Both the position numbers and the translations under genes were made by a program. Under the pieces are notes generated by a model. It did not search any database and was not told the DNA's origin. It was given only the letters and a program-made list of their open reading frames with translations. A DNA stretch of 64,000 nt, from positions 744,001 through 808,000 of the forward strand of contig NZ_CP061319.1 in assembly GCF_018688455.1 (NCBI RefSeq), read 5' to 3'. Below are positions 35,985 through 50,982 of the stretch, piece after piece (position 1 is the stretch's first letter; the number at the start of each line of letters is the position of its first letter). This stretch comes from Polynucleobacter sp. AM-7D1. Lineage in GTDB: Bacteria > Pseudomonadota > Gammaproteobacteria > Burkholderiales > Burkholderiaceae.

Positions 35985-36021
35985 GTCATTGAATTTATTG
36001 AGATATTTTTCAATAAATTCA

Positions 36022-36055
36022 CTGTCACAAAAGAGTCATACTGAATCCGTATTGT
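36022..36055 (+). promoter_or_regulatory. PhoB box and -10 element of the pstS promoter
   Basis: CTGTCAC AAAA GAGTCAT (36022-36039) fits the PhoB-box pattern of two 7-base units with a 4-base A-rich spacer. TATTGT (36050-36055) follows after 10 bases as a -10 element. It lies 60 bases before the pstS ATG. PhoB/PhoR are encoded in the same cluster. Confidence 0.85.
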
Positions 36056-36099
36056 TCAGTTATCGCAATGTTGCGAGAACTAAACGAGGATTACTCCAC

Positions 36100-37122
36100 A
36101 TGAAATCATTTTTGAAAAAAGCGCTAGTTATTGGTGCGATTTCAGTAGCCCCAGTTGCTTTTGCAGCCGATATGACCGGTGCTGGCGCAACATTCCCATA
36201 CCCAATGTACGCTAAATGGGCAGAAGCCTACAAAGCAAAGACTGGCTCAAATTTAAATTACCAATCCATTGGTTCTTCCGGTGGTATCAAGCAAATCAAA
36301 GCAAAGACTGTAGATTTTGGTGCATCTGATAATCCAGTCAAATTTGAAGATTTGGAAAAGGATGGTTTAGTTCAGTTCCCAGCCATTATTGGTGGTGTAG
36401 TGCCAGTAATTAACGTTGAAGGTGTTAAGCCTTACGAGCTCAAGTTATCCCCAGATACTTTGGCTGATATTTTTCAAGGTGTAATCACCAACTGGAATGA
36501 CAGACGTCTTGTATTGAATAACCCTGGTTTGAAGATGCCAGACATGCCAATCACTGTTGTTCATCGTGCGGACGGTTCTGGAACTACTGCAATTTTTACC
36601 AATTACTTGGCTAAAGTAAGTCAAAACTGGAAAGATGCTGTTGGTGAGGGCGCAGCTGTTAAATGGCCGGCTGCCTCTTCTGTAGGCGGAAAAGGTAACG
36701 AAGGTGTTGCTGCAAACGTATCTCGGGTTAAAGGTGCGATTGGTTATGTAGAGTATGCATATGCCAAGAAAAACAAGCTAATCAGCGTTTCTTTGAAAAA
36801 CAAAGATGGTCAATTTGTGCAACCTGACGATACTACCTTTGCAGCAGCTGCGGCAGGTACTGATTGGTCTAAGATTCCTGGAATGGGTACATTTATTACC
36901 AATGCTTCTGGTGCTAAGTCATGGCCAATCACTGGTGCATCATTCATCTTGATGTACAAAAATCCAGAGAAGAAGGGAAACTCTGCTGAAGTGTTGAAGT
37001 TCTTTGACTTTGCTTTCAAAGAAGGTAAGAAAATGGCTCTTGAACTTGACTATGTTCCAATGCCTGATGTGACTACCGACTTTATTCGCAAGAATGTCTG
37101 GTCTAATATTGCTACTAAGTAA
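36100..37122 (+). CDS. pstS: Phosphate-binding periplasmic protein
   Basis: High-affinity phosphate-binding protein of the Pst importer. 340 residues from ATG 36100, with a signal peptide MKSFLKKALVIGAISVAPVA cleaved after AFA. The mature start, ADMTGAGATFPYPMYAKWA, is typical. Phosphate-contact regions are visible: SIGSSGGIKQI near residue 62, DFGASDNP near residue 78 and RADGSGTTAIFT near residue 155. An in-frame extension to 35989 is not plausible because it would span the PhoB-controlled promoter. A strong hairpin separates it from pstC. Confidence 0.97.
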   Translation: MKSFLKKALVIGAISVAPVAFAADMTGAGATFPYPMYAKWAEAYKAKTGSNLNYQSIGSSGGIKQIKAKTVDFGASDNPVKFEDLEKDGLVQFPAIIGGVVPVINVEGVKPYELKLSPDTLADIFQGVITNWNDRRLVLNNPGLKMPDMPITVVHRADGSGTTAIFTNYLAKVSQNWKDAVGEGAAVKWPAASSVGGKGNEGVAANVSRVKGAIGYVEYAYAKKNKLISVSLKNKDGQFVQPDDTTFAAAAAGTDWSKIPGMGTFITNASGAKSWPITGASFILMYKNPEKKGNSAEVLKFFDFAFKEGKKMALELDYVPMPDVTTDFIRKNVWSNIATK

Positions 37123-37152
37123 TTTGTTAGATTGATTGTTTAATCTCAACGC

Positions 37153-37186
37153 TGAAACAGCTCCACCTTTGTGTGGGGCTGTTTCA
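37153..37186 (+). promoter_or_regulatory. Intercistronic hairpin between pstS and pstC
   Basis: 14-pair stem, 37153-37166 with 37173-37186 (core acagctccac / gtggggctgt, one G-T pair), 6-base loop, no long T-tail. It is likely a partial terminator or 3' RNA stabiliser that gives more PstS than PstCAB, as in other pst operons. Confidence 0.6.
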
Positions 37187-37206
37187 TCATTAAATGAAGT
37201 CAAAAC

Positions 37207-38196
37207 ATGATTGAATCAACACAGTCACACTCAGCACCAACGCCCCAGGCTCTGCGTATTGCTAAGTTGCAACGTATTCAAGATTTTTTATTCCATGGAA
37301 TAACTCAATTTTTTGCTTTATCTGTACTGATTGCGCTGGTTGGCATCATCATTTCCTTGGTGATAAACGCTTGGCCAGCATTGGATAAATTTGGTGTTGG
37401 TTTTTTCTTTACAAAAGAGTGGGACATCATTAATGGTGAGTTCGGTGGCCTCATTGCTATTTATGGCACTCTAGTTACCTCTTTGATTGCCTTACTGATT
37501 GCCGTTCCTCTGAGCTTTGGTATTGCCGTATTTTTGACTGAGCTTTGTCCAGCACCCCTTCGCAGACCCTTGGGAACCGCTGTTGAGTTGCTCGCGGCTG
37601 TGCCATCGATCATTTACGGTATGTTTGGCTTATTTATTTTTGCACCTATTTTTGCTGATTATATTCAGCCCGCATTACAAGCAACCTTAGGCCAAGTGCC
37701 GGGTTTAGGCATACTCTTTTCTGGCGCAATGAATGGTATCGGCGTTTTGTGTGCCGGCCTAATTTTGGCAATGATGATTTTGCCTTTTATTGCCTCGGTA
37801 ATGCGTGATGTCTTTGAAATCGTTCCCCCAGTGTTGAAAGAATCAGCCTATGGTATCGGCTGCACCACTTGGGAAGTGGTTAAGAATGTTGTGCTCCCTT
37901 ATACAAAAGCCGGCGTGATTGGCGGCATCATGCTCGGTTTGGGTCGAGCCCTTGGCGAAACTATGGCGGTTACTTTTGTGATTGGTAATGCGCATCGCCT
38001 TTCTGCCTCATTATTCTCACCAGGTAATTCGATTGCCTCAACATTAGCCAATGAATTCGGCGAGGCTGAAATTGGGGTTCATTATTCATCCTTATTTGCA
38101 TTGGGCCTTGCGCTATTCATGATTACTTTTGTCGTGTTAGCGATTGCCAAGTGGATGCTCATTAGTATGGAAAAAAAGCAGGGACTTAAAACATGA
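37207..38196 (+). CDS. pstC: Phosphate ABC transporter permease PstC
   Basis: Inner-membrane permease, 329 residues, about six helices after a roughly 25-residue cytoplasmic lead. Conserved parts: [20 protein letters not shown] and [14 protein letters not shown] near residues 105-140, and the ATPase-contact loop [20 protein letters not shown] near residue 220, with [16 protein letters not shown]. It pairs with PstA; the genes overlap by ATGA. Confidence 0.96.
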
Positions 38197-39059
38197 ACGG
38201 CCTATCTAATATCAATCCGGCAATTTTTGCCAGACGTAAGCGTGCCAACAAGATTGGCTTAGTTTTATCTACTGCTGCTATGGCATTGGGTATGGTCTTT
38301 TTGTTATGGATTTTGACTGTTTTATTTCTAAAAGGCTTTTCTTCGATTAACTTTGATGTATTTACTCAGAGCACGCCTGCACCTGGTTCAGAGGGCGGGG
38401 GTTTGGCCAACGCCATTGTTGGCAGCTTAATGATTGTAGGGAGTTGTACTCTGATTAGCACCCCGATCGGGGTATTGGCTGGCTTATATCTTTCTGAGTA
38501 CGGCGATAGAAGTAAGGTGGCTTCAGTAACCCGTTTTGTTACTGACATCATGCTATCTGCGCCATCCATTGTGATTGGTTTGTTTGTGTATGCCATTGTG
38601 GTCGCACAAGTAAGGCACTTCTCAGGTTGGGCTGGCACGATTGCATTGGCTTTAATTGCTATTCCAGTAGTGGTCCGCACAACTGAAAATATGCTGCGCT
38701 TAGTACCAGGTAGCTTACGTGAGGCTGCCTATGCTTTGGGTACCCCGAAGTGGAAGGTAGCTTTTATGATCACCTTACGCGCAGCTCAAAGCGGAGTGAT
38801 AACTGGTATTTTGTTGGCACTTGCTCGTGTCAGTGGTGAAACAGCCCCATTGCTCTTTACTGCCCTAAACAATCAGTTTTTCTCTAGCAATATGAATGCA
38901 CCTATGGCTAATTTGCCAGTGGTGATCTTCCAATTCGCAATGAGCCCTTACGATAACTGGGTTGATTTAGCCTGGGCTGCAGCTTTACTTATCACCTTTG
39001 CTGTACTGGGTCTGAATATTCTTGCGCGCGTAGTGTTCCGCGAGAAAGTACAGAGTTAA
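38193..39059 (+). CDS. pstA: Phosphate ABC transporter permease PstA
   Basis: Second permease, 288 residues, six helices. Conserved parts: [19 protein letters not shown] near residue 92, [16 protein letters not shown], the coupling loop [20 protein letters not shown] near residue 178, and [15 protein letters not shown]. Starts within the pstC stop region. Confidence 0.96.
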
Positions 39060-39115
39060 TGAGTAATATGAAAACCATGTTTGACTTAAATACGATTGAT
39101 AGTCAAGGAATAAGA

Positions 39116-39904
39116 ATGAACGACACAACTACAGCGGTAAAAAAAGACGTTAAAAATGCCTTAGAGGTTCGCAACCTTAATTTCTTCTATGGTTCCTTTC
39201 AAGGTTTAAAAGACATCAATTTGGATATTGAAGAGGGCAAGGTAACGGCATTTATTGGTCCGTCTGGCTGTGGAAAATCTACATTGCTCCGCACACTCAA
39301 TCGGATGTATGACCTGTATCCTGGACAACGGGCAGAGGGGGAGATCAACTTCTATGGTCAGAATATTCTAGAGCCTGGACAAGATCTTAATCTCTTGCGT
39401 TCACGAATTGGAATGGTTTTCCAAAAACCAACTCCTTTCCCAATGTCGATTTATGAAAATATTGCATTTGGTGTCCGTTTATATGAAAAGCTTTCTCGTT
39501 CCGAGATGGATGAGCGCGTAGAGTGGGCTTTGAATAAAGCTGCGTTATGGAATGAAGCAAAGGACAAGTTAAATCAAAGTGGTCTTTCACTGTCAGGTGG
39601 TCAGCAGCAGCGATTGTGTATTGCTCGAGGTGTAGCGGTAAAGCCTTCCGTGATTCTTTTGGATGAGCCAACTTCAGCATTGGATCCAATTTCAACTGGA
39701 AAAATTGAAGAGCTCATTAATGAGCTAAAACATGAGTACACGATTGCGATTGTGACCCACAATATGCAGCAAGCAGCCCGGGTATCGGACTACACTGCTT
39801 ATATGTATCTTGGTAGCTTGATTGAGTACGGTAAAACCGATGAAATCTTTATTAAGCCTAAGCGTAAAGAAACAGAAGATTACATAACCGGTCGATTCGG
39901 TTAA
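39116..39904 (+). CDS. pstB: Phosphate ABC transporter ATPase PstB
   Basis: ATPase of the Pst importer, 262 residues from ATG 39116. Walker [13 protein letters not shown], the PstB-typical [15 protein letters not shown], signature [15 protein letters not shown] and Walker [14 protein letters not shown] are all present, ending in [11 protein letters not shown] prefer the start at 39116 because AAGGAA precedes it. An ATG at 39059 overlapping the pstA stop would add 19 residues. Confidence 0.95.
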
Positions 39905-39916
39905 TTGGAGATAAAT

Positions 39917-40624
39917 ATGCCAGATAAACACCTTTCCTCGCAGTTTGATGCCGATTTAAATTCCCTGTCCAGTAGATTGCTGGAGATGGGTGGTCTTGTT
40001 GAATCCCAAATCTCCTCTGCCATGCGTGCATTTACGCAGATGGATATTGATACTTGTAATGTCGTAATCGCTAATGAAAAGATCGTAAATGATCTCGAAA
40101 TTCAAATCGATATGGCCTGCACGGAATTGATTGCACGTCGCCAACCAACTGCTCGAGATTTACGTTTAGTGATGGCGGTATCAAAAGCGATTACTAATTT
40201 AGAACGCGCTGGTGATGAGGCAGAGCGTGTAGCCAAAAGGACTAAGCGTTTGATTGAATCTGGTGCGACTCACAATATTAATGTTGCTGAGATTCGTTTA
40301 TCGGGTCAGATGGCTATTTCTTTACTACGTCGTAGCTTAGATGCATTTGCCCGTCTTGATACGGTTGCAGCAGCGGAAGTAGTTCAGGAAGATCGTCAGA
40401 TCGATGAAGAGTTCAAAGGCTTTGTTCGTAAGTTGATTACTTACATGATGGAAGATCCACATACGATTTCTACTGGCTTAGATATGCTCACAATTGCTAA
40501 AGCCATTGAACGCATTGGTGATCATGCCAAGAATATTGCAGAGTTTGTGATTTATATTGCCAAGGGATCGGATGTACGTCATATCCCCCATGAGGATTTG
40601 GTTCGCGAGGCGAATAAACCGTAA
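39917..40624 (+). CDS. phoU: Phosphate signalling protein PhoU
   Basis: Links Pst transport state to PhoR and represses the Pho response in high phosphate. 235 residues, all-helical with two repeated three-helix bundles. Metal/PhoR-surface motifs are EIQIDMACTELIARRQPTARDLR (landmark near residues 54-76, quoted for its E...D...RxxxxDLR pattern), LERAGDEAERVAK near residue 93, and IERIGDHAKNIAEF near residue 198. ATG 39917 preceded by TTGGAG. Confidence 0.96.
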   Translation: MPDKHLSSQFDADLNSLSSRLLEMGGLVESQISSAMRAFTQMDIDTCNVVIANEKIVNDLEIQIDMACTELIARRQPTARDLRLVMAVSKAITNLERAGDEAERVAKRTKRLIESGATHNINVAEIRLSGQMAISLLRRSLDAFARLDTVAAAEVVQEDRQIDEEFKGFVRKLITYMMEDPHTISTGLDMLTIAKAIERIGDHAKNIAEFVIYIAKGSDVRHIPHEDLVREANKP

Positions 40625-40650
40625 CTATCCATACTAAAGCGGAATTTGCT

Positions 40651-41364
40651 ATGACTCACCGGATATTGATTGTTGAAGATGAGCCTTCGATTGCTGAACT
40701 CATTGCAATTAATTTAAGCCATGCGGGATATGAGGTGCAAAAGGCTCTTCAAACTGACGTTGCTTCAAACATGATGCGCGATGAGCTCCCTAATCTATTG
40801 ATTTTGGATTGGATGCTACCTGGTAAATCTGGCGTTCAATTTGCCCGAGAGCTTAGGTCAAATGAGCGCACTAGATCCTTGCCGATACTCATGCTTACTG
40901 CCAAGAGCGAAGAGAGCGACAAGGTCTTAGGTCTTGATTCTGGGGCCGATGATTACGTTACCAAGCCTTTTTCTCCTAAAGAGTTAGTCGCCCGTGTAAA
41001 AGCATTGTTGCGCCGACAGATTCCGCTAGAGGGGGACGGTCCCTTAGCTGTTGGTCCATTAAGGCTAGACCCAGTCTCACATCGCGTGAGTGCTGTGTGG
41101 CCAAATAGTGATCCGCAGACTTTATCTTTAGGGCCTACAGAGTTCCGATTGTTGCAATTTATGATGGCCAACCCTGAAAGAGTTCATTCTCGTGAGGGCT
41201 TGCTCGATAAGGTCTGGGGTAATGAGGTTTACATAGAAGAGCGTACAGTTGATGTTCATATCAAGCGGCTCAGAGCAGCCTTATCCCCGGCAGACTGTGA
41301 TCGCTACGTAGAGACGGTTCGGGGTAGCGGCTACCGAATCACAAAAACACCCACCCAGACCTGA
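40651..41364 (+). CDS. phoB: Phosphate regulon response regulator PhoB
   Basis: DNA-binding activator of the Pho regulon, 237 residues. Receiver domain with acidic pocket VEDEP (residues 7-11), phosphoacceptor Asp in LLILDWMLPGKSG near residue 54, Thr in MLTAKSEESDK and Lys in DDYVTKPFSPKEL. A winged-helix OmpR-type output domain ends with VWGNEVYIEERTVDVHIKRL and TVRGSGYRI. Presumed to bind the boxes described at 36022, 43410, 48302 and 49141. Confidence 0.96.
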   Translation: MTHRILIVEDEPSIAELIAINLSHAGYEVQKALQTDVASNMMRDELPNLLILDWMLPGKSGVQFARELRSNERTRSLPILMLTAKSEESDKVLGLDSGADDYVTKPFSPKELVARVKALLRRQIPLEGDGPLAVGPLRLDPVSHRVSAVWPNSDPQTLSLGPTEFRLLQFMMANPERVHSREGLLDKVWGNEVYIEERTVDVHIKRLRAALSPADCDRYVETVRGSGYRITKTPTQT

Positions 41365-41390
41365 TATTTATTGGGTGGACCTGAGTTTTT
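41351..41390 (+). terminator. Possible terminator between phoB and phoR
   Basis: Stem ccaccca (41351-41357) / tgggtgg (41372-41378) with a 14-base loop, then acctgagttttt. It overlaps the phoB stop and has a long loop, so it may only reduce read-through into phoR. Confidence 0.35.
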
Positions 41391-41425
41391 CTAGTCTCCT
41401 GCAGCAGATGCTCTAAGATTGCGGA

Positions 41426-42724
41426 ATGTTCCCCGTTTTTTTCCGCTTTTTTCTTCTTGTTTGCGCAGCTTTTTTAGCTGCTTTGATTGCCCAAAATAAT
41501 GTTGGCCCTATTACAGGCATTTCAGTCGGCATTGCTTTTCTCTCGATTCCTCTGATTTACTCCTACATTAATTTAGCGCGCCTACGAAAATACACTGTAG
41601 AGGATAGGCTAGAGTCAATGCCACTGCCTAGTGGTTATTGGGAAGAGGTTTTCTTTTACCTGCAACGATTAGTGCGCAATCTTAAGTTGCAAATGCTATC
41701 TGTTGAGAAACAACACGATCGGTTTATTGAAGCGTTTCAGGCTTCGCCAAACGGCATCATGATGCTGGATGATCAAGATCAAATTGAATGGTGCAATGCG
41801 ATCTCAGAGCGCTTCTTTGGCCTTCAATTCAAACGTGATGTGATGCAGCGTATTAATTTCCTGATCCGTCGACCTGAGTTTATTCGCTATCTTCATGATC
41901 GTCATTTTGAGGAGCCATTACTTTTAGAGCGTATGGGCCCTAAATCAAATCTGAGTTTGATGTTGCAAGCTTTTCCTTTTGGTGAGAAGCGTCACTTACT
42001 CTTGGTGCAAGATGTGACTGACCTACAAAAAGCGGATGCTATGCGGCGGGACTTTGTGGCCAACGTCTCCCATGAGATGAGAACTCCCATTACCGTATTA
42101 ATGGGGTTTCTGGAAACCATCCAATCTTTAGACTTGGATAAGGCTCAACAGGATCAATATTTTGAGATGATGATGTCTCAAGCCCAGCGCATGAAAAGCC
42201 TGGTAGAAGACTTATTGACTTTGGCCAATTTGGAAGCAAACTCTTTGCCGGCCCCAGCGCAGCCAATACAAATGCAGACTGTCATGGCACTACTAAAAAA
42301 TGATGCTGAGGCACTCTCTCAGGGTCATCATGCATTTCATTTTGATGTTGAGAGTTCTAAAAATATTCTGGGTGAAGAGCGAGAAATTCTCTCGGCATTT
42401 AGCAATTTAGTCTCAAATGCAATTCGATATACACCTGATGTTGGCTCTATTAGCGCATCTTGGCGCCTAAGCGCTGCGGGAGAGGGTGAATTCTCAGTCG
42501 TAGATACTGGCCCAGGAATCGCTTCAGAGCATCTTTCTAGACTAACCGAGCGCTTCTACAGGGTAGATCGTAGTCGCTCACGTGATACTGGTGGAACCGG
42601 CTTAGGATTGGCGATTGTCAAACATATTGCGAGTCGACATCAAACGCAATTGTTAATTGAGAGTACGCCTGGAAAGGGAAGCACTTTTACGATGCGTTTC
42701 CCTAAGGAGAGGCTGACAGATTAA
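41426..42724 (+). CDS. phoR: Phosphate regulon sensor histidine kinase PhoR
   Basis: Membrane-bound kinase that phosphorylates PhoB at low phosphate. 432 residues. Two adjacent N-terminal helices (residues 2-45) have almost no periplasmic loop, as in other PhoR. A PAS domain follows (QASPNGIMMLDDQDQIEWCN near residue 110). The H-box is FVANVSHEMRTPITVL near residue 212, the N-box LVSNAIRYT near residue 330, and the G-boxes VVDTGPGI and GGTGLGLAIVKH. ATG 41426. Confidence 0.96.
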   Translation: MFPVFFRFFLLVCAAFLAALIAQNNVGPITGISVGIAFLSIPLIYSYINLARLRKYTVEDRLESMPLPSGYWEEVFFYLQRLVRNLKLQMLSVEKQHDRFIEAFQASPNGIMMLDDQDQIEWCNAISERFFGLQFKRDVMQRINFLIRRPEFIRYLHDRHFEEPLLLERMGPKSNLSLMLQAFPFGEKRHLLLVQDVTDLQKADAMRRDFVANVSHEMRTPITVLMGFLETIQSLDLDKAQQDQYFEMMMSQAQRMKSLVEDLLTLANLEANSLPAPAQPIQMQTVMALLKNDAEALSQGHHAFHFDVESSKNILGEEREILSAFSNLVSNAIRYTPDVGSISASWRLSAAGEGEFSVVDTGPGIASEHLSRLTERFYRVDRSRSRDTGGTGLGLAIVKHIASRHQTQLLIESTPGKGSTFTMRFPKERLTD

Positions 42725-42732
42725 CTTGGGGC

Positions 42733-42966
42733 TTAATCTTTTTTGTCCTTCTTATCTTTTTTGTCCTTCTTATCCTTCTTATCCTTTTTGCGTTTAGATT
42801 CCTTGGGTAATTTATCTAACTTACCATTGGCATAAAGGCACCAAACTTTAATTTCTTCTAGAAGTTCAGTGAGGTCCTCATAAGATAGATTTTTAAAGTC
42901 TTGCAAACCAATGGCCCCAGACTCTTGAAGCTGTTTAACAGCATCTTCGTACTTATATGCACTCAT
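42733..42966 (-). CDS. Small acidic/lysine protein with C-terminal Lys-Lys-Asp repeats
   Basis: 77-residue protein of unknown function, from ATG 42966 (GGAA just upstream). Residues 1-55 look like a small helical domain (YEDAVKQLQESGAIGLQDF, then a Leu/Glu-rich helix). The tail from about residue 58 is KESKRKKD followed by five KKD units. It sits between phoR (convergent, 8 bases away) and ppx, where many Burkholderiaceae carry ppk. The repeat is coded by tandem 18-base copies. Mixed Lys/Asp tracts could bind polyphosphate or RNA, but that is speculative. Confidence 0.65.
   Translation of the reverse strand: MSAYKYEDAVKQLQESGAIGLQDFKNLSYEDLTELLEEIKVWCLYANGKLDKLPKESKRKKDKKDKKDKKDKKDKKD
42737..42781. 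repeat. Tandem 18-base repeat encoding the KKD tail
   Basis: Two perfect 18-base copies (42737-42754 and 42755-42772) and a 9-base partial copy (42773-42781). Repeats of this kind change copy number easily, so tail length may vary between strains. Confidence 0.8.
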
Positions 42967-43171
42967 AAATTTCCACGTAAAGTTGTAAGAACGAGGTAAT
43001 CCTAGCAAAGTAATGTGACAAAAATAGTTTTTTAGAAGATTGGCTATAGCGCATAGGGGCTAGGGCCCTGATTTCAGGTTGTTGCTACCAATAAATAGAC
43101 CTTTTAGTTTCTATTCTATTGGTCAGCGATGCTGTCTTATTTGTGAAATATTTTCCTGTCATGATCTATTT

Positions 43172-43384
43172 GTGAATAGATTGAACCAAACTCAGCATGC
43201 CATCATTACTTGCCCGAATTGTCAGGGCCATGAAATTTTGGATATTGCCCAAGCTAGCTCCATGCACCTTTACAGATGCCCCTCATGTAATGGCCTCCTA
43301 AAAGCAAAATCTGGGGATTGCTGCATATTGTGTAGCTTTGCTAACAGGGATTGCGCTAGTTCCGAGCAAAATTTAGCCGCTTAG
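43172..43384 (+). CDS. Small GDCCVxC-type cysteine protein
   Basis: Short Cys-rich protein with CPNC, then RCPSC, then the hallmark KSGDCCILC near the C-terminus. This matches the GDCCVxC family, whose members are suspected metal-binding or redox proteins and sometimes selenoproteins. No ATG is suitable; GTG 43172 or TTG 43181 are the likely starts, and no clear ribosome-binding site is seen. Located just upstream of ppx and its Pho box. Function unknown. Confidence 0.6.
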   Translation: MNRLNQTQHAIITCPNCQGHEILDIAQASSMHLYRCPSCNGLLKAKSGDCCILCSFANRDCASSEQNLAA

Positions 43385-43409
43385 GCTTTTGCCAGTAGAC
43401 TGTGGTTCA

Positions 43410-43454
43410 TTTTCATGAATATGTCATGAGAGTTTCATAAAATAGACATATTCA
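43410..43454 (+). promoter_or_regulatory. PhoB-box array and -10 before ppx
   Basis: Four 7-base units in 11-base phase: TTTTCAT (43410), ATGTCAT (43421), GTTTCAT (43432) and TAGACAT (43443). The best pair, 43421-43438, is followed after 10 bases by TATTCA (43449-43454), the same spacing as at pstS. The ppx start is 27 bases further on. Confidence 0.65.
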
Positions 43455-43481
43455 TATTGAAACCTGTTAACTGGAACAATT

Positions 43482-45047
43482 TTGGCTGTTAATAAAGATA
43501 TTTCAGGAAATACTCCTCGCGATCTGGTGGCGGCAGTCGACCTTGGGTCGAATAGCTTTCGCATGCTCGTTGCTCAGGTGGTGAAAACACCATCGGGAAC
43601 TCAGTTGCGCCCCATTGATACTCTGCGGGAGTCTGTGCGTCTTGCGGCCGGTCTTACTGATAACAAGTTATTGGGAAATGATGCCTATCAGCGTGGCCTG
43701 ACAGCGATTCGTCGCTTTGGTGAGCGTATTCGGGGCTTTGATCCTTCCAAGGTACGTGCTGTTGCTACTAATACCTTGAGGGTAGCAAAAAATGCCCCTA
43801 GCTTTATTCGTGATGCCGAAGAAGCTTTGGGTTTCCCTATTGAAGTGATTGCCGGCGTTGAAGAGGCGCGCCTGATTTATATTGGTGCTGCCCATGAGGT
43901 CTCAGCTGTTCAGGGAAATCGCTTAGTGGTTGATATTGGTGGCGGCTCTACTGAGTTCATCATCGGTAAAGGCTATGAGCCAAAGTTGATGGAGAGTCTC
44001 TATATTGGCTGCGTCTCTCATAGTCTACGGTTTTTCCCTAAAGGTAATATTGATGCTCATGCTTTCAAGGAAGCAGAATTAGCAGCACGCCGAGAGATTC
44101 AAGTGATCTCTGGGGCTTACCTTAAAAGCGGTTGGAAACAGGTGATTGGTTCTTCAGGAACTGCGCGTGCTTTGGCAGATCTGATCGCTGAAAATAACTT
44201 TAATGGCCAGCAAAGTGAAGGCTTGACCATGGGGCGTGTCAATGGCGCTAGTGGCCTTATTACACGCGATGGCTTGAGAGCCATGAAGAAGCATCTTCTC
44301 AAGTATGAAAATCTTAGTCAGGTTGAGCTTCAGGGTCTAAAAGATGATCGTCGATCAGTCTGGCCGGGCGGTTTGGCCATCATGATTGCTGTATTTGATG
44401 AGCTGGGCATTGAAAGTATGGAGGTCACAGACGCTGCATTACGTGTAGGAGTCTTGTATGACCTCCTGGGCCGTTCCCAACATGACGATATGCGCTTCGT
44501 TACGGTAGAGCAGTTTATGCAACGCTATGCCGTTGATCGTGAGCAGGCAAAGAGAGTAGGGATACACGCCGCAGAATTTTTATCTCAACTACCAAAGCCG
44601 GACTCTGAGGATCGGGAAGATAACATTGCATTATTGCAATGGGCTGCCAATCTTCATGAAATCGGTTTATCGATTGCCCACAATGGATATCACAAGCATT
44701 CAGCTTACATTGCAGGTAATGCAGATATGCCGGGATTTTCGAAGAATGACCAGGCAAGGTTGGCTGCGCTCCTTATAGGCCATGCCGGTAAGCTCGGAAA
44801 ATTAGCGAATAATTCTAGTTTTAGAGATTGGCGAATGTTGTTCTGCTTGCGCTTGTCACAGGTTCTTTGCCGCGGTAGGAGTGATATTCAACTTCCCAAA
44901 GTCAAGGTATCTGAAGTAGACGGCTCTTATATTGTGAGCCTATCAAAAGATTGGGTTGAGGAGCATCCTTTGACCGAATTTAGTTTGCTAAAGGAAGCGG
45001 CCGAGTGGGAACGTATCGGCCGTCCTTACAAAGTAATCTTGCGTTAA
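43482..45047 (+). CDS. ppx: Exopolyphosphatase / guanosine pentaphosphatase (Ppx/GppA)
   Basis: Removes phosphate from polyphosphate ends. 521 residues. The Ppx/GppA ASKHA fold has the phosphate-1 motif AAVDLGSNSFRMLVAQ near residue 17 and VVDIGGGSTEFIIG near residue 148. The catalytic Glu region is VEEARLIY near residue 125, and a C-terminal HD-like domain contains WAANLHEIGLSIAHNGYHKH near residue 387. TTG start 43482; no ATG is available before the first motif. Its stop abuts the converging olsB stop with no spacer. Confidence 0.93.
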   Translation: MAVNKDISGNTPRDLVAAVDLGSNSFRMLVAQVVKTPSGTQLRPIDTLRESVRLAAGLTDNKLLGNDAYQRGLTAIRRFGERIRGFDPSKVRAVATNTLRVAKNAPSFIRDAEEALGFPIEVIAGVEEARLIYIGAAHEVSAVQGNRLVVDIGGGSTEFIIGKGYEPKLMESLYIGCVSHSLRFFPKGNIDAHAFKEAELAARREIQVISGAYLKSGWKQVIGSSGTARALADLIAENNFNGQQSEGLTMGRVNGASGLITRDGLRAMKKHLLKYENLSQVELQGLKDDRRSVWPGGLAIMIAVFDELGIESMEVTDAALRVGVLYDLLGRSQHDDMRFVTVEQFMQRYAVDREQAKRVGIHAAEFLSQLPKPDSEDREDNIALLQWAANLHEIGLSIAHNGYHKHSAYIAGNADMPGFSKNDQARLAALLIGHAGKLGKLANNSSFRDWRMLFCLRLSQVLCRGRSDIQLPKVKVSEVDGSYIVSLSKDWVEEHPLTEFSLLKEAAEWERIGRPYKVILR

Positions 45048-45986
45048 TTACATGCCCAAGAAGTGCTTGGCGTAGCGTGGATTGATTTCAGATAAGCGGA
45101 GCATGGTGAGTACGTCTGCAGTATTAAAATCTGGATCCCAGGCTGGCGCACTGCAAATCTTAGCGCCTAACTTAAGGTAGCCTTTAATCAAGGGCGGTGG
45201 CTCAACTTGTAAACCACCATTTAAGCGCTCCAAGGGCAGCGGTAGTCTTGGGAAAGCGTGATTTTCCACTGGAGCCATTTGATCATTGCTCAGTGAGTTG
45301 TATAGGCTTGCGGCAAAATGACCGCCGTCTGCCATAGGAATACTTGCACATCCAAGCATGATTTCATAATCGTGTTTTTGCATGTACTGGGCTAGACCGC
45401 TCCACAATGCCATGATGACTGCGCCTGAGCGATAGTCAGCATGAACACATGATCGACCTAATTCAACCATCTTAGGGCGCAAGTGATTGAGGCGAGAAAG
45501 ATCAAATTCAGAATCTGAGTAGAGGCGACCAATTTCAGCGGCTTTGTGCGGTGGGAGGACTCGATAGGTACCAACCACCTTCAGCGTCTCTTGATCGCGG
45601 ATGAGAAGGTGGTCGCAGTAGGTGTCAAACTCATCGATATCTAAGTCTTCAGGATGGGCTGGTAGGCTTGCACCCATTTCCTCTGCAAATACTTTGAAAC
45701 GCAAACGTTGAGCTTCCTTCACTTCCTTAGGATTTGAGGCCCAGCTAATTTGAAAAGCAGGGCGCTTGGCTTTGCTAATTACTTTCTCGTTAGCAATCGG
45801 CTCAATAGCTAAAACTTCGTTGCGTGCACGCAAAGCAAACTTTTTACCGAATAATTTCTTGGCAATTTTCTTGGAAAAAAGCTTTTTAATTGCTTTGGCT
45901 TTGCTGGTCTTCTCTTTTTTTGGCTTTTGCTCAAATCGCCCATTAAACAGATCAAATGCAGCGAGAGGATTTGGGATATCGGACAT
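45048..45986 (-). CDS. olsB: L-ornithine N-alpha-acyltransferase (OlsB-like)
   Basis: GNAT-fold enzyme that would attach a 3-hydroxyacyl group from ACP to ornithine, making lyso-ornithine lipid. 312 residues. Family marks: LRFKVFAEEMGA, DIDEFDTYCDHLLIRD near residue 117, VVGTYRVLP, GRLYSDSEFDLSRL near residue 155, MVELGRSCVHADYRSGAVIM near residue 172 and IMLGCASIP. An N-terminal extension of about 70 residues is Lys-rich, including KKLFSKKIAKKLFGKKF. Last gene of the plcP-agt-dgkA-olsB operon, 42 bases after dgkA. Known OlsB proteins act with OlsA, encoded at 48360. Confidence 0.85.
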   Translation of the reverse strand: MSDIPNPLAAFDLFNGRFEQKPKKEKTSKAKAIKKLFSKKIAKKLFGKKFALRARNEVLAIEPIANEKVISKAKRPAFQISWASNPKEVKEAQRLRFKVFAEEMGASLPAHPEDLDIDEFDTYCDHLLIRDQETLKVVGTYRVLPPHKAAEIGRLYSDSEFDLSRLNHLRPKMVELGRSCVHADYRSGAVIMALWSGLAQYMQKHDYEIMLGCASIPMADGGHFAASLYNSLSNDQMAPVENHAFPRLPLPLERLNGGLQVEPPPLIKGYLKLGAKICSAPAWDPDFNTADVLTMLRLSEINPRYAKHFLGM

Positions 45987-46028
45987 GAGTTTCCTTATTT
46001 AGGTTAAGTCAATCGTAAAAGGGCTCTG

Positions 46029-46433
46029 TTACCAATTGATGACAAGGGGGAGGCAAATGGTGGCCCAAAGTAGAGCTGCAATCAGTAATGCCAACATGAC
46101 TGCAGCTGAGCCAAAGTCTTTAGCTCTTTTAGATAGGTCATGATGATCAAAGGAGATTCGATCAATTGCCGCTTCAACGCTAGAGTTAAGTAGCTCCACC
46201 ACTAAAACAAGTAGTAGCGATGTAATGAGGATGCATTTTTCAACTGGACTCACCGGTATCCATAATGCTATTGGAGTTAGCAAGGCTAGTAAGGTCAGTT
46301 CTTGCCTAAATGCACTCTCCTCTTTAAACGCATACACAATGCCGCACCAAGAGTTTTTTGCAGCATGCCAAGCTCTTGTTAGTCCACGATTTCCTTTGTG
46401 TGGATTTTGCTTAATATCGTAAGGGGTAGTCAA
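46029..46433 (-). CDS. dgkA: Diacylglycerol kinase
   Basis: Small inner-membrane kinase turning diacylglycerol into phosphatidic acid with ATP. 134 residues, three helices. DgkA signature: SWCGIVYAFKEESAFRQEL near residue 28, and VVELLNSSVEAAIDRI followed by AKDFGSAAVMLAL, including the catalytic Glu. TTG start 46433 with AGAAGA upstream. It is 9 bases after the agt stop, so in the same transcript as plcP. It could recycle diacylglycerol released by PlcP. Confidence 0.93.
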   Translation of the reverse strand: MTTPYDIKQNPHKGNRGLTRAWHAAKNSWCGIVYAFKEESAFRQELTLLALLTPIALWIPVSPVEKCILITSLLLVLVVELLNSSVEAAIDRISFDHHDLSKRAKDFGSAAVMLALLIAALLWATICLPLVINW

Positions 46434-46442
46434 AATATCTTC

Positions 46443-47471
46443 TTAAGCTAAGGCGGTGATATGAACTTGCGCAGAAGGCACAGGTTTGAGGTGTTTGGCA
46501 AATTGCTCTGAAGCAGCTCTCCAGGAGAATTTCTCGGCATGTGCTCTGGCAAGCTCACGTGGAATTCGTAAGGCTTGTATACAGGCTTCCCGCAGATCTT
46601 CGTGCATTGCGCCTGCAGGAGAGTCGCCTAGAACATCAATTGGGCCAGTAACTGGATAGGCGGCAACAGGGGTGCCGCAGGCCATAGCTTCAAGTAATAC
46701 CAAGCCAAATGTATCGGTTTTGCTTGGGAATACAAATACATCGGCGGCTGCATATACCTTGGCTAGTTCATCTTGCTGTAAAACACCTAGGTAATTGATA
46801 TTGGGATATTTTTGCTTAATCTCTGCCATGGCAGGACCATCGCCAACTACCCACTTAGAACCTGGTAAATCAATTTCTAAGAATGCATTGATGTTTTTTT
46901 CTACGGCAACGCGTCCGACGTATAGAAAAATCGGGTGCGCACTATTGAGTGCTTTGGAGTCTTGCATTTTGAAGATGTCTAAATCAACTCCACGCGACCA
47001 GAGCACTACGTTTTTGAGTCCGTATTCTTCAAGATCATTTTTAACCACAATTGTAGGCGCCATTACTGCCATTGATGGGCCATGGAACCAACGAATAAAG
47101 GCATAAGTGATGGCCAATGGAATTCCGGTGCGTGCTTTCACGTACTCTGGAAAGCGTGTATGGTAGGCGGTAGAAAAGGGCAGATTATTTTTAACGGCGT
47201 AGGAGCGTGCAGAAAGTCCCAGAGGGCCTTCGGTTGCAATATGCATCGCATCAGGAGCAAATTCTTTAATTCTGCGTGCCACCTCTTTGCCGGGAAACAG
47301 GGATAGGGCAATATCAGGATAAGTAGGGCAGGGAATAGATTTAAAACCATTCGGTGTGATCATCTCTACTTCGTGACCCATACCAATCAATTCAGCACGG
47401 GTTTGCTTGAGGGTTCTGACAACGCCGTTGACTTGTGGATCCCATGCATCCGTAATAATCATTATTTTCAT
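46443..47471 (-). CDS. GT4 glycosyltransferase, probable diacylglycerol glycosyltransferase (Agt-like)
   Basis: 342-residue GT-B-fold retaining glycosyltransferase. N-terminal domain begins ITDAWDPQVNGVVRTLKQT with the acceptor loop TAYHTRFPEYVKAR near residue 103. The nucleotide-sugar domain has LYVGRVAVEKNI near residue 188 and FPSKTDTFGLVLLEAMACG near residue 250, where Asp takes the first place of the Ex7E motif, as common in this subgroup. The start overlaps the plcP stop (ATGA). In marine and soil bacteria an adjacent plcP/agt pair makes glycolipids from diacylglycerol at low phosphate, which is the basis of this call. Sugar donor unknown; a mannosyltransferase for another acceptor is the main alternative. 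Confidence 0.78.
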   Translation of the reverse strand: MKIMIITDAWDPQVNGVVRTLKQTRAELIGMGHEVEMITPNGFKSIPCPTYPDIALSLFPGKEVARRIKEFAPDAMHIATEGPLGLSARSYAVKNNLPFSTAYHTRFPEYVKARTGIPLAITYAFIRWFHGPSMAVMAPTIVVKNDLEEYGLKNVVLWSRGVDLDIFKMQDSKALNSAHPIFLYVGRVAVEKNINAFLEIDLPGSKWVVGDGPAMAEIKQKYPNINYLGVLQQDELAKVYAAADVFVFPSKTDTFGLVLLEAMACGTPVAAYPVTGPIDVLGDSPAGAMHEDLREACIQALRIPRELARAHAEKFSWRAASEQFAKHLKPVPSAQVHITALA

Positions 47472-48277
47472 GCGATAGCCTCTTTATTAAGAACTTGAAC
47501 AGCGGGTTGATGAGCAATTTCTGCTGCGACTACTGGATCACCTTTGATATGTGTCCAGTAAATAATTTTGAGTTCACCGGTAGTTGTTTCCACTAAGGCC
47601 GAAAGACTTTCAACCCAGTCACCATCATTGCAATAGAGCAGGCCATCGATCTCACGAATTTCTGCTTTATGAATATGGCCGCACACAACACCGTCGCAGT
47701 CACGCAAGCGGGCTTCTCTAGCCATGATGTGTTCAAAATCAGCGATATAGCTCACTGCATTTTTGACTTGATGCTTGAGGTACTGGGAAAGAGACCAGTA
47801 CTGTAATCCCATCTTTACACGCAACATATTGAAATAGCGATTGATGTATAGGATGAAGGTATACATGGAATCGCCCACGTAGGCGAGCCACTTGGCGTAT
47901 TGCATTACCCCATCAAATAAATCGCCATGAGTAACCCAGAGCTTTCGACCATCAAGCGTGGTATGGATTACCTCTTCTTGAACTTTGATATCCCCAAAAG
48001 ACATGCCACAGTATTGTCTAGCAGCTTCATCATGATTACCGGGGATATAAATGACTTCAGAGCCTTTACGAGCTTTGCGCAATAACTTCTGCACTACGTC
48101 ATTGTGAGATTGTGGCCAGTAGAAAGAGCGTTTTAATTTCCAGCCATCAATAATGTCACCGACTAAATAAAACGTATCTGACTCATTGTGTTTCAAGAAA
48201 TCGAGGAGGTACTGAGCCTGACACCCAGAAGTTCCTAGGTGTACATCTGAAATCCAGATAGCTCTGTAGTGCATCAT
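47468..48277 (-). CDS. plcP: Metallophosphoesterase, probable phospholipase C (PlcP-like)
   Basis: 269-residue calcineurin-type phosphoesterase with all metal motifs: SDVHLG (D11, H13), GDIIDGWK (D41), GNHDE (N81, H82, D83), VTHGD near residue 115 and GHIHKAE near residue 200. It resembles UDP-2,3-diacylglucosamine hydrolase (LpxH), and PlcP enzymes are often annotated so. The operon (agt, dgkA, olsB), the overlap with agt and the PhoB operator upstream point to PlcP, which cuts phospholipids to diacylglycerol during phosphate starvation. ATG 48277 or 48274. Confidence 0.75.
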   Translation of the reverse strand: MMHYRAIWISDVHLGTSGCQAQYLLDFLKHNESDTFYLVGDIIDGWKLKRSFYWPQSHNDVVQKLLRKARKGSEVIYIPGNHDEAARQYCGMSFGDIKVQEEVIHTTLDGRKLWVTHGDLFDGVMQYAKWLAYVGDSMYTFILYINRYFNMLRVKMGLQYWSLSQYLKHQVKNAVSYIADFEHIMAREARLRDCDGVVCGHIHKAEIREIDGLLYCNDGDWVESLSALVETTTGELKIIYWTHIKGDPVVAAEIAHQPAVQVLNKEAIA

Positions 48278-48301
48278 GAGTTCATATTTAGCCTGTCATT
48301 T

Positions 48302-48341
48302 ATGAAGGCCTCATGACACTTTTAAGTCAGTTTGATGACTT
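48302..48341 (-). promoter_or_regulatory. Extended PhoB operator of the plcP-agt-dgkA-olsB operon
   Basis: Read on the minus strand there are four 7-base units spaced by 4 bases: AAGTCAT (48341-48335), CTGACTT (48330-48324), GTGTCAT (48319-48313) and CCTTCAT (48308-48302). The central spacer is AAAA. CTGACTT AAAA GTGTCAT is the best pair, with CATAAA (48304-48299) or TAAATA (48290-48285) as possible -10. It lies 24 bases before plcP and 18 bases before the divergent olsA start, so it could serve both. Confidence 0.7.
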
Positions 48342-48359
48342 GATTTATATTCTGAGCTT

Positions 48360-49133
48360 ATGAAACTTCATGCATCAAAAGATGAAACATTGTCTAGAAA
48401 GACATTACCTATTTTAATTTGGGTGAGGGTTCTTGTTCATATTCTTGCTGGTGTTTTCACACTCTCCTTGATCTTTCCGTTTACTAGTCAATCGCAAAAG
48501 GATCGCAAGATACAACAATGGTCACAGCGTCTCCTCCTCATCTTTAAGCTAAAGTTGGTTGTCACTGGTTTGGACGATGTGATCACCACCCCTTCTTTAT
48601 TCTCAGCAAATCATATTTCTTGGCTAGATATTCATGCCATCAATGCCTGTAAACCCATTCGATTTGTTGCTAAGTCAGAGGTAAGATCTTGGCCAATCTT
48701 TGGTTGGATGGCAAAGCAATTGGGAACGGTTTTTATACGTAGAGATAGTGCGCGTCATGCTAGGCAAGTAGTAGAGCAAATGGCAGAAGTACTTAAAACT
48801 GAATCAATTTGTATTTTTCCCGAAGGAACCTCTACCAACGGAGTCCAAGTATTGCCTTTTAAACCCAATCTATTTGAGTCTGCCTTGGCTGCCAAATGCC
48901 CGATTTATCCTCTCTCTATTCGCTATGTCTGTGAGAAAACGGGTTTGAGGAGTGACTCACCGGCTTTTATTGGGGATATGGGGCTATTGGAATCCATGTC
49001 TAGAGTGATTCATGAGCCTGGCTTGCTGGTCCAGATACACTTTTTGCAGCCTTATCGAGCCGAGATTTCAGGGGGTTCTGATCGCAAACAGGTGGCAGCA
49101 TATTGTCAGGAATCGATCGCCCAAACCCTATAA
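48360..49133 (+). CDS. olsA: 1-acylglycerol-3-phosphate O-acyltransferase family, probable OlsA
   Basis: PlsC-type acyltransferase, 257 residues, with one N-terminal membrane helix (residues 18-40). Motif I NHISWLD (H85 and D90, Hx4D), motif II region GTVFIRRDSARHA near residue 122, motif III FPEGTST (153-159) and a later PIYPLSIRY are visible. It may be the housekeeping PlsC, but its position opposite the plcP-agt-dgkA-olsB operon suggests OlsA, which O-acylates lyso-ornithine lipid. The ATG at 48360 has no clear ribosome-binding site and sits 18 bases from the PhoB operator. Confidence 0.75.
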   Translation: MKLHASKDETLSRKTLPILIWVRVLVHILAGVFTLSLIFPFTSQSQKDRKIQQWSQRLLLIFKLKLVVTGLDDVITTPSLFSANHISWLDIHAINACKPIRFVAKSEVRSWPIFGWMAKQLGTVFIRRDSARHARQVVEQMAEVLKTESICIFPEGTSTNGVQVLPFKPNLFESALAAKCPIYPLSIRYVCEKTGLRSDSPAFIGDMGLLESMSRVIHEPGLLVQIHFLQPYRAEISGGSDRKQVAAYCQESIAQTL

Positions 49134-49197: not shown

Positions 49198-50103
49198 ATG
49201 ACGTCAAAGCATAAGGAGATGGCCGAGTGGTATCGGCGCGCTCAAGAAGAAATTCTAGATAGTATGGATGAAGAGCTCGAAATGGAGCTCGATGATGATC
49301 GCCTCTCGCAAGATGGTGGTAGTGGCTCAGTTATCCCTCGAAATGTTTACTTTAAAGAATTATTTCGTCTGCAAGGCGAGCTGGTGAAGCTTCAAGACTG
49401 GGTTGTGGAGAATAAGCTTAAAGTTGCTGTTTTATTTGAAGGGCGTGATTCTGCTGGTAAGGGTGGTGCGATTAAGAGGATTACCCAGCGACTTAACCCG
49501 CGGGTTTGTAAGGTAGTTGCCCTTACTGCACCAAGTGAGCGTGAAAAGACCCAATGGTATTTTCAGCGTTATGTGTCCAATTTACCCGCAGGCGGTGAGA
49601 TCGTTTTATTTGACCGTAGTTGGTATAACCGTGCTGGCGTTGAGAAGGTCATGGGTTTTTGTACGGATGCTGAGTACGAAGAGTTTTTACGTACAGTCCC
49701 AGAATTTGAGCGGATGATTATTCGTTCTGGAATTATTCTCATCAAATACTGGTTCTCTATTTCTGATGATGAGCAATACAACCGTTTTATGATGCGCATT
49801 CATGATCCACTGAAACAGTGGAAGCTCAGCCCAATGGATTTGGATGCTCGTCGCCTTTGGGAAGCGTATACCAAGGCTAAAGAAACCATGCTCGAGAGAA
49901 CCAACATTCCCGAGGCTCCTTGGTGGGTGGTGGCGGCTAATGATAAGAAAAAAGCGCGACTTAACTGTATCTCGCATCTTTTAGATCAGATTCCTTATCG
50001 GGAGATCGATCATCCAGTGATTACCTTGCCAGAGCGAGTTCATAACCCCGATTACCTCCGAGGTCCAGTCCCTAAGAGTATGTACGTCCCAGAGATTTAC
50101 TAA
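49198..50103 (+). CDS. ppk2: Polyphosphate kinase 2 (PPK2)
   Basis: Transfers phosphate between polyphosphate and nucleotides (usually ADP or GDP), cytoplasm. 301 residues. An acidic N-terminal 45 residues (Glu/Asp-rich) precede the PPK2 core. Walker A is FEGRDSAGKGGAIKRI near residue 80, followed by RTQWYF-like KTQWYFQRYVSNLPAGGE, Walker B LFDRSWYNRAGVEKVMGFC near residue 137 and lid residues DPLKQWKLSP near residue 203. ATG 49198 with AGAGGAATAA upstream. Preceded by a Pho box. Confidence 0.93.
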   Translation: MTSKHKEMAEWYRRAQEEILDSMDEELEMELDDDRLSQDGGSGSVIPRNVYFKELFRLQGELVKLQDWVVENKLKVAVLFEGRDSAGKGGAIKRITQRLNPRVCKVVALTAPSEREKTQWYFQRYVSNLPAGGEIVLFDRSWYNRAGVEKVMGFCTDAEYEEFLRTVPEFERMIIRSGIILIKYWFSISDDEQYNRFMMRIHDPLKQWKLSPMDLDARRLWEAYTKAKETMLERTNIPEAPWWVVAANDKKKARLNCISHLLDQIPYREIDHPVITLPERVHNPDYLRGPVPKSMYVPEIY

Positions 50104-50154: not shown

Positions 50155-50982
50155 TTGAAATCAAAGCTAGAGATAACGAATCGGGAATTCAAGCTCCTGA
50201 TCAAGCCTCAGGGTCTTGATAGGCGTAGCAGAATTACTGCGCTAAGCGATCAGATTCTCAATTTCTGCAAGAAAAATAAGGTCGATTTTTTCCATCTAGA
50301 TAATGCGCAAACAGGCTTGCGTAGCATTTATTTTTACGATACCCCAGGTGAGGATTTCCGTAGAAATAATATTATTCTGCGGGTGCGTGAGTCCAGGCAA
50401 AATATCTGGGTTGATGACTGGTGTGAGGTCACTCTAAAGTGCCGCACAGGAGATATAGGTCAGTCGAACCAATTTAATCCTGCCCCCAAAAAGTCGATCA
50501 AATCGCGCCTACGCCTCAAAGAAGAAATTCTACGGGGAGATGCAATTGGATCAACAAGATCTATTTATTCCAACAACGCAATTCTCGATGCGGTACCACT
50601 AGATAGTCTTTTTGAGCGATCCTTATCTAGTGTTATTAAATTTTTCCCTGGCCTGGCTAAGCTGCCCATTGATAAGAAGAAGCCGCTTCGTATTGTTGGT
50701 GGAAGTACTAATAAAATATTAGAAGCTTGTTTACCACTTGGCAATTTAGTTTTTGGTGATGGTGTTCAGGCCCATTGTGAAATCGCAATCTGGATGAGAA
50801 GTGTTGGCGATCCGATTGTTGGTGAGTTGGCATTTTCCTATCGCGTTAACGATGCCAATAGGAAGCAAGCTAAGGCACATAAGCGTGCTGATAAGTTCTT
50901 CAAAAAACTCCAAATCGAACTTGCGAACTGGTTGGAAATAGGTAGCACTAAAACTGCTTTGGTTTATGGAAAGCCAGAATAG
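50155..50982 (+). CDS. CYTH / triphosphate-tunnel-like protein
   Basis: 275-residue protein with the outline of a CYTH (triphosphate tunnel) domain. The beta-strand 1 region is NREFKLLIKP near residue 9 (one Glu of the ExExK motif is Asn). It continues with IYFYDTPGEDFRRNNIILRV near residue 60, WCEVTLKCR near residue 93, RLRLKEEI near residue 118, and later HCEIAIWM and VGELAFSY, alternating charged residues into a tunnel. The family handles triphosphates and polyphosphates. TTG start 50155, preceded by GGGAGAT. Directly follows ppk2 by 51 bases and precedes the chromate transporter pair by 2 bases. Assignment is by pattern only. Confidence 0.6.
   Translation: MKSKLEITNREFKLLIKPQGLDRRSRITALSDQILNFCKKNKVDFFHLDNAQTGLRSIYFYDTPGEDFRRNNIILRVRESRQNIWVDDWCEVTLKCRTGDIGQSNQFNPAPKKSIKSRLRLKEEILRGDAIGSTRSIYSNNAILDAVPLDSLFERSLSSVIKFFPGLAKLPIDKKKPLRIVGGSTNKILEACLPLGNLVFGDGVQAHCEIAIWMRSVGDPIVGELAFSYRVNDANRKQAKAHKRADKFFKKLQIELANWLEIGSTKTALVYGKPE

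Follow-up and report, generated by a model that had tools for sequence, protein, structure and literature searches.

The 64-kb window analysed here, a stretch of 64,000 nucleotides from the genome of Polynucleobacter sp. AM-7D1, carries five neighbouring genes, plcP, agt, dgkA, olsB and olsA, which we read with high confidence as a PhoB-controlled membrane-lipid remodelling island; it was probably merged in Polynucleobacter and may have been partly exchanged with the Methylopumilus lineage. Four of the genes lie on the minus strand in one predicted operon. plcP (47468-48277) encodes a PlcP-type calcineurin-like phosphodiesterase predicted to convert phospholipid to diacylglycerol, agt (46443-47471) a glycosyltransferase of family GT4 predicted to convert diacylglycerol to glycolipid, dgkA (46029-46433, with a TTG start) a diacylglycerol kinase of the DAGK_prokar family and olsB (45048-45986) an OlsB-like ornithine N-alpha-acyltransferase. 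The fifth gene, olsA (48360-49133, plus strand), is divergent from plcP across a spacer of 82 bases and encodes an OlsA-like lyso-ornithine lipid O-acyltransferase. A Pho-box array of four 7-mers at 11-bp spacing is located in this spacer (48302-48341, minus strand) and faces plcP. plcP and agt overlap by 4 bases, and the gaps between agt and dgkA and between dgkA and olsB are 9 and 42 bases, respectively. Open reading frames and Pfam domains (Acetyltransf_5, DAGK_prokar, Glyco_transf_4 with Glycos_transf_1, Metallophos and Acyltransferase, all above their cut-offs) agree with the five genes and with the overlap and short gaps of at most 42 bases described in the initial annotation of this DNA.

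In the proposed mechanism, low phosphate would activate PhoR-PhoB, and phosphorylated PhoB would bind the phased array ahead of plcP and switch on transcription of plcP-agt-dgkA-olsB. PlcP would cleave the phospho-head group off phospholipids to leave diacylglycerol, to which Agt would add a sugar, yielding a phosphate-free glycolipid. Surplus diacylglycerol would be converted to phosphatidic acid by DgkA, acting both as a safety valve and as a return route once phosphate is back, and OlsB together with the divergently encoded OlsA would produce ornithine lipid. The gene content of the island, its order and conservation, the joint absence of plcP, olsB and dgkA from two genomes, the phased array and the occurrence of separate LpxH and PlsC proteins were established here. 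The separate LpxH and the conserved gene order lend comparative support to the phosphate-starvation lipid-replacement function that had been suggested for these genes.

Assignment of the enzymes

The metallophosphoesterase of the window scored 45.3 bits with Pfam Metallophos, and its translation shows SDVHLG, GDIID, GNHDE, THGD and GHIHK, which we take to be the metal-ligand motifs of calcineurin-like metallophosphoesterases. Relatives of this protein are frequently annotated as LpxH. It might accordingly be a housekeeping LpxH or another phosphoesterase, with envelope genes unconnected to phosphate as its neighbours; its weak LpxH likeness (40.0 bits with the LpxH equivalog model, the cut-off being 134) fits this reading, as does the name 'UDP-2,3-diacylglucosamine diphosphatase' given to most annotated plasmid-borne relatives. 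Against it stands a clear LpxH elsewhere in the host genome (one contig of 1.93 Mb with three PF00149 places), the separate gene reaching 268.6 bits with the same model. The window protein is thus not the genome's only LpxH, a possibility that the initial annotation had named as one that would refute its reading, and an LpxH identity for it was rejected on the two scores. The Pho array, the location near the pho genes and the partnership with olsB all speak against LpxH and an envelope role as well, leaving this explanation highly improbable.

Genes similar to plcP and agt stand side by side on named Sphingomonas, Methylobacterium, Roseomonas and Pseudomonas replicons, that is, in alpha- and gammaproteobacteria. 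On Pseudomonas aeruginosa plasmids (H15, H17 and H18 with H39-H41) such a pair is labelled UDP-2,3-diacylglucosamine diphosphatase and glycosyltransferase. A PlcP-like match in Sinorhizobium meliloti was located on pSymB and was hence not used as a validated chromosomal PlcP. Within the family of the host, agt adjoins plcP in 17 of 19 loci from other Burkholderiaceae genera (L027-L045; tblastn, 1e-5), and it does so in many further loci of the order and class.

The DgkA of the window matched DAGK_prokar with 115 bits. Its best sequence match in the PDB is the diacylglycerol kinase 3ze3, presumably the enzyme from E. coli, and it retains the VELLNS segment, which we assume to be catalytic. DgkA could be a passenger of the operon without a role in remodelling, for instance one that recycles diacylglycerol from the synthesis of osmoregulated glucans. 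In line with this, dgkA lies outside the operon in one deep Polynucleobacter clade (7 loci), and no dgkA was found beside agt in L039, L040 and L045. On the other hand, dgkA does stand beside agt in 14 of the 19 loci from other Burkholderiaceae, and the window protein is the only DAGK_prokar match of the genome. In phosphate-starved Pseudomonas putida, moreover, DagK was among the proteins enriched together with PlcP and OlsAB (PMC5082522). We therefore consider a mere passenger role rather unlikely and retain DgkA as a putative component of the remodelling pathway.

OlsB gave 132.7 bits with Acetyltransf_5 and is the genome's only PF13444 match. It is 63-69% identical to the olsB products of other Burkholderiaceae, most of which have the same ppx neighbour, and the tree agrees with this relationship. 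The genome encodes two PF01553 acyltransferases, OlsA and a PlsC-like protein (L108). OlsA scored 139 and 129 bits with two OlsA models, compared to 32 and 47 bits for the PlsC-like protein; the presence of the latter rules out that olsA is the sole PlsC gene of the genome. OlsB and OlsA were also the best NCBIfam models for their respective proteins. Both scores lie below the equivalog cut-offs, as detailed below, and the two names therefore rest on best model, relatives and context.

Three further observations concern OlsB. The window protein has an N-terminal segment rich in lysine, some 50 residues long (45790-45950), which the OlsB of L076, of the Methylopumilus type, lacks. A second OlsB, 69% identical, is encoded away from the island in one Polynucleobacter genome (G053:C1:9782-10690). 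With viral carriage of the island in mind, a scan of IMG/VR with OlsB gave two loci, one with a partial match of 61% and one with a match of 34%.

Conservation of the island and its predicted PhoB operator

The nearest named relatives of the host in the first trees are Polynucleobacter. Out of a larger group, 61 Polynucleobacter genomes were searched, 51 of which have a completeness of 90% or more and a contamination of 5% or less. Of these 51 good-quality genomes, 49 carry plcP or pieces of it, 49 carry olsB and 48 gave a match to DgkA. The plcP count includes a piece in G017 (residues 1-116) and a split frame in G023 and excludes G027 and G042, whose sole matches were 24-25% identical and LpxH-like; the olsB count includes a piece in G017 (residues 178-302) and a match with one stop in G025; the DgkA count includes G029 and G032, which gave matches of 44-49% only. 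G027 and G042 jointly lack plcP, olsB and dgkA, the three genes searched for. In the small-genome G017, where plcP and olsB occur as pieces, dgkA is absent, and in one genome of the family set (G424) plcP, agt and olsB are in pieces and the olsA match contains two stops.

The gene order proved conserved in related genomes as well. Of the 44 Polynucleobacter-type loci that were fetched, 31 contain the five genes in order, among them L025 and L046, which are decayed but still have their pieces so arranged, and a further seven loci have the same arrangement minus dgkA. The remaining six comprise the decayed L024, the incomplete L118 and four loci cut by contig ends (L117, L119, L124 and L152). 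The 44 loci include metagenome-assembled genomes (MAGs) under broader names and the duplicate pairs L012/L120, L013/L129 and L026/L112.

Both strands of the window were scanned for CTGTCAT-like 7-mers at 11-bp spacing. The array at 48302-48341 scored 21 of 28 and was the top four-unit array of the window; its pairs start 42, 53 and 64 bases ahead of the ATG of plcP. The second-best four-unit array was found at 43410, upstream of ppx (43482-45047, plus strand), an exopolyphosphatase-like gene named from sequence. A four-unit score of 21 was matched in 2 of 200 simulated 64-kb sequences (first-order Markov), whereas the best three-unit score (16) was matched in 42 and the best two-unit score (11) in all 200 of them. 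Two- and three-unit sites, being common at window scale, were discarded as stand-alone evidence; when the 82-base spacer alone was shuffled by dinucleotides, 16 of 1000 sequences reached the observed two-unit score of 11. As short matches are common by chance, it is therefore the four-unit array and the conservation of its phase that mark the site. In 31 of 33 Polynucleobacter-type loci (the broken loci L024, L025 and L046, three duplicates and L117-L119, L124 and L152 being omitted) the best plcP-facing pair starts 42, 53, 64 or 75 bases before the start codon. The best pair starts at 42, 53 or 64 bases in 29 of the 33 real loci, compared to 1.7% of the shuffles. On average the best score facing plcP was 11.0, versus 8.4 for 18 regions from other Burkholderiaceae and 8.0 for the shuffles. 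The open frames are long in those other Burkholderiaceae, where plcP may really start further upstream, and the lack of a box in them accordingly counts for little.

No conserved box was found facing olsA: positions were scattered among 32 loci, with a mean score of 8.6 when shuffled plcP upstream regions average 8.0, and an operator shared with olsA is not supported. Two loci have a Pho-like match of 10/14 ahead of olsB; it overlaps the coding end of dgkA and was ascribed to coding constraint. The conserved, phased box is confined to the plcP side, and we therefore attribute the predicted PhoB operator, which the phase conservation supports, to the plcP operon only. The initial annotation had placed a PhoB-type operator between the operon and olsA and both lipid arms under it. 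The array is indeed there and its phase is kept, and olsB would be covered as a member of the operon; the claim does not extend to olsA, which is on the opposite strand and is not faced by a conserved box. A comparable situation has been described in Acinetobacter, in which olsB is phosphate-controlled and olsA is reported to be unresponsive to phosphate (PMC11828411).

Taken further, these data could mean that the two arms are neighbours without a single switch, plcP-agt-dgkA being Pho-controlled, olsB transcribed mainly from its own promoter and olsA constitutive. Besides the missing box of olsA, this would fit the retained position of olsB beside ppx and the predicted Pho boxes that olsB genes of Burkholderia sensu lato carry themselves (PMC7814305). 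However, plcP through olsB are on the same strand with gaps of at most 42 bases and in conserved order, and plcP, olsB and dgkA are missing together from the two genomes mentioned above. Independent control of the arms is thus possible but unlikely, and we favour a common switch for the four genes of the operon.

Several points weigh against the island being a PhoB-controlled remodelling system. The names PlcP and Agt are predictions from domains and context, and a search of the PDB at E 1e-3 returned no sequence relative of PlcP. OlsB scored 179 bits where its equivalog cut-off is 350, and OlsA 139 bits where the cut-off is 300. More generally, the activities of the enzymes, their lipid products, the binding of PhoB, the function of DgkA and the control of olsA are predictions. 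The seven loci lacking dgkA between olsB and agt (olsB-agt-plcP with divergent olsA) all belong to one deep clade; in three of them, L112-L114, dgkA is located between phoB and phoR. In the MAG contig L118, olsA lies directly beside a partial dgkA, olsB is present, and agt and plcP are missing, a layout due to either a deletion or an assembly fault. Finally, the best box is out of phase in L020 and L121, two loci of the P. rarus type.

Origin of the island and its relation to Methylopumilus

As had been noted for the window before, a pst-pho locus is found next door: pstS-pstC-pstA-pstB-phoU-phoB-phoR-ppx (about 35989-45047, pst, pho and ppx names assigned from sequence) directly adjoins olsB. 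phoU-phoB-phoR (39905-42724, plus strand) lie 3' of pstSCAB, and ppx is convergent with olsB, their stop codons abutting.

In the relatives, the parts of the island are found apart. Neither olsB nor olsA was present in any of the 19 plcP loci of other Burkholderiaceae by the tblastn search given above. Conversely, of the 56 loci around olsB outside Polynucleobacter (fetched from the best 80 of 589 matches), none contained plcP in the fetched stretch, and in 46 olsB is convergent with and abuts ppx. Nine of the ten exceptions are from Burkholderia: in five of these, ppx is on the same strand 2.5-4 kb off, and in four no ppx was within reach. The tenth is L189, from a Nitrosomonadales MAG. The best olsA matches in other Burkholderiaceae were mostly 30-42% identical, a few genomes giving only weak ones, and lay far from plcP where positions on the same contig were compared (e.g. 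G356, G358 and G468). With ppx-olsB and plcP-agt-dgkA apart in the relatives, we therefore infer that Polynucleobacter joined two separate loci, with olsA beside them. The island would thus be an example of separate phosphate loci fused into one predicted operon. In L085 (G498), from another family of the same order, plcP, two GT4 genes, olsB, olsA, phoR, phoB and phoU are clustered.

A scan of named genomes with the OlsB alignment led to Candidatus Methylopumilus universalis (L111). In this locus and in L076 and L193-L199 (genus code g334), olsB-plcP occurs with a divergent olsA and, where the stretch is long enough, with ppx beyond olsA. In 8 of 8 such loci the best box lies 42 or 63-64 bases ahead of plcP. 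The PlcP, OlsB and OlsA rows of L195 (G763) are identical to those of L111, which therefore ties family f197 to the Methylophilaceae. PlcP was matched at E 0.001 by 42 of 187 genomes of this family, 24 with real PlcP and 18 with weak matches of 20-28% identity. The Methylopumilus cluster resembles that of Polynucleobacter in olsB-plcP, the divergent olsA, the plcP-facing box and the nearby ppx. It differs in that ppx is on the other side, that dgkA, found on the olsB side in L076, L111, L193-L196 and L198, is of another lineage, and that an agt-like gene of 37-40% identity is encoded on the opposite strand (in L111 and L193-L198; not found in L076 or in the short L199).

In the PlcP tree, the Methylopumilus rows and those of a second genus, g349, fall inside a starred clade together with Polynucleobacter (99/97). 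Another seven Methylophilaceae rows group far from these in a clade of their own, and L210, an odd and very long row, is placed elsewhere. A single clade for all 18 Methylophilaceae PlcP rows was rejected in the approximately unbiased (AU) test (p 0.000276), and rejection persisted without L210 and the g349 rows (p 0.00658). The OlsB of Methylopumilus is found beside the deep Polynucleobacter clade, with support of 98/93 in the first tree and 84/95, unstarred, in a later one, in which the g349 OlsB falls outside. OlsA groups with the same deep clade (89/99, unstarred, with few outgroup rows). In the DgkA tree, L076, L193 and L194 stand apart from Polynucleobacter (the L111 match was too short for the tree), and a transfer of dgkA along with the block is not supported. 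The deep Polynucleobacter clade nearest to Methylopumilus likewise has no dgkA in its operon, which fits a transfer. The tree scripts dropped rows that contained a stop or matched over a short length only, the PlcP tree omits L080-L082 and the reduced AU test also omits L037 and L038; the AU p-values are not blind, as the first trees preceded the naming of the groups.

The likeness between Methylopumilus and Polynucleobacter could also result from convergence or long-branch attraction. The long branches of Methylopumilus and g349 were flagged as meeting in the PlcP tree, and the g349 rows have an odd letter make-up. A clade of Polynucleobacter alone stays unrejected for PlcP (AU p 0.113 and 0.403), so that the Methylopumilus PlcP may branch within Polynucleobacter or next to it, and for OlsB the tests reject neither Polynucleobacter alone (p 0.138) nor Burkholderiaceae minus Methylopumilus (p 0.11). 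In addition, a second small-genome Methylophilaceae genus (L201-L204) shows olsB-plcP and a divergent olsA with dissimilar sequences, and its OlsB falls outside. These points are countered by the rejection of one Methylophilaceae PlcP clade in both row sets and by the OlsB and OlsA trees, which agree with each other where DgkA differs. Identity to the window PlcP, too, is 64-66% in g334 (63-79% for some pieces), compared to 46-53% for other whole Methylophilaceae copies and 58% for one copy from g349. We regard convergence or attraction as a serious though doubtful alternative.

An exchange of olsB-plcP-olsA between Polynucleobacter and the Methylopumilus lineage, two freshwater planktonic groups, is thus suggested by the trees, its more likely direction being out of Polynucleobacter. 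Taking origin and exchange together, we favour with moderate confidence that Polynucleobacter built the two-armed island at the pho locus and that the olsB-plcP-olsA core, box included, was transferred between Polynucleobacter and streamlined Methylophilaceae. If true, two planktonic lineages of fresh water would share phospholipid replacement as a mobile adaptation that moves, and is regulated, as a single block. One observation on plcP itself concerns an 84%-complete Methylophilaceae genome of g349, in which the gene is in two pieces through decay or an assembly fault (G676:C181).

Known systems and neighbouring phosphate genes

Marine bacteria, methanotrophs and pseudomonads are known to replace phospholipids when phosphate is scarce. 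The PlcP and Agt steps are established in other bacteria, plcP being described with glycosyltransferase partners in Phaeobacter sp. MED193, SAR11, P. aeruginosa and Methylosinus trichosporium, with a Pho box reported in P. aeruginosa and with MGDG and/or GADG as products (PMC4796936, PMC8528852, PMC9239053). Compared to these systems, Polynucleobacter adds dgkA and olsB in the same predicted transcript as well as the divergent olsA. In P. putida BIRD-1, PlcP, DagK, OlsA and OlsB are reported as PHO-dependent, but plcP (PPUBIRD1_1390) and olsA-olsB (0974-0975) are separate loci there, as opposed to one island in Polynucleobacter; a term search of the available text did not return the word glycosyltransferase (PMC5082522). 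The olsB of Burkholderia sensu lato (PMC7814305) is related, and its place beside ppx and pho genes probably represents the ancestral half of the island; it is unlike the Polynucleobacter gene in having no plcP nearby in the 56 loci described above.

The initial annotation knew of no described case with both arms and DgkA under one operator in a freshwater betaproteobacterium. Among the papers listed by a literature search, judged mostly by title and abstract, none described this gene arrangement and none dealt with phospholipid replacement in Polynucleobacter or Candidatus Methylopumilus; one listed paper contains both Polynucleobacter and ornithine lipid (PMC6116057). Term searches of the available texts likewise gave no 'lipid' or 'ornithine' in a paper on Methylophilaceae genomic islands (PMC10872708) and no 'ornithine' or 'polyphosphate' in a Polynucleobacter genome paper (PMC3308952). 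As a co-regulated set, PlcP, DagK, OlsA and OlsB were already known from P. putida BIRD-1, and what is new is therefore the physical merger and its spread rather than the biochemistry. A specialist would not expect this merger, nor the likely exchange with Methylopumilus. The conserved, compact island gives a direct prediction on phosphorus use by lake bacteria that can be tested in cultured strains.

On the other side of the island, olsA is adjoined by ppk2 (49198-50103, plus strand), a polyphosphate kinase 2 gene whose product reached 371 bits with TIGR03707, over the cut-off, and which has a Pho-like site at 49141. No ppk1 was present within the fetched stretch of the loci with ppk2 (the window, L007-L017 and others), and none of the 13 loci whose fetched stretch includes ppk1 (L018-L023, L026, L112-L115, L121 and L151) has ppk2 beside olsA. 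This apparent swap of polyphosphate kinases concerns regions 42724-43482 and 49198-50103 of the window. Beside ppk2, an open reading frame of 275 amino acids (50155-50982) gave no Pfam or NCBIfam match at E 1e-3; it is retained after ppk2 in 11 fetched loci. A second PPK2-like gene, named from sequence, lies about 8 kb from the first (57746-58519, minus strand), and in L013, L015, L016 and L129-L131 a second PPK2-like gene of 51-55% identity directly follows ppk2 on the opposite strand.

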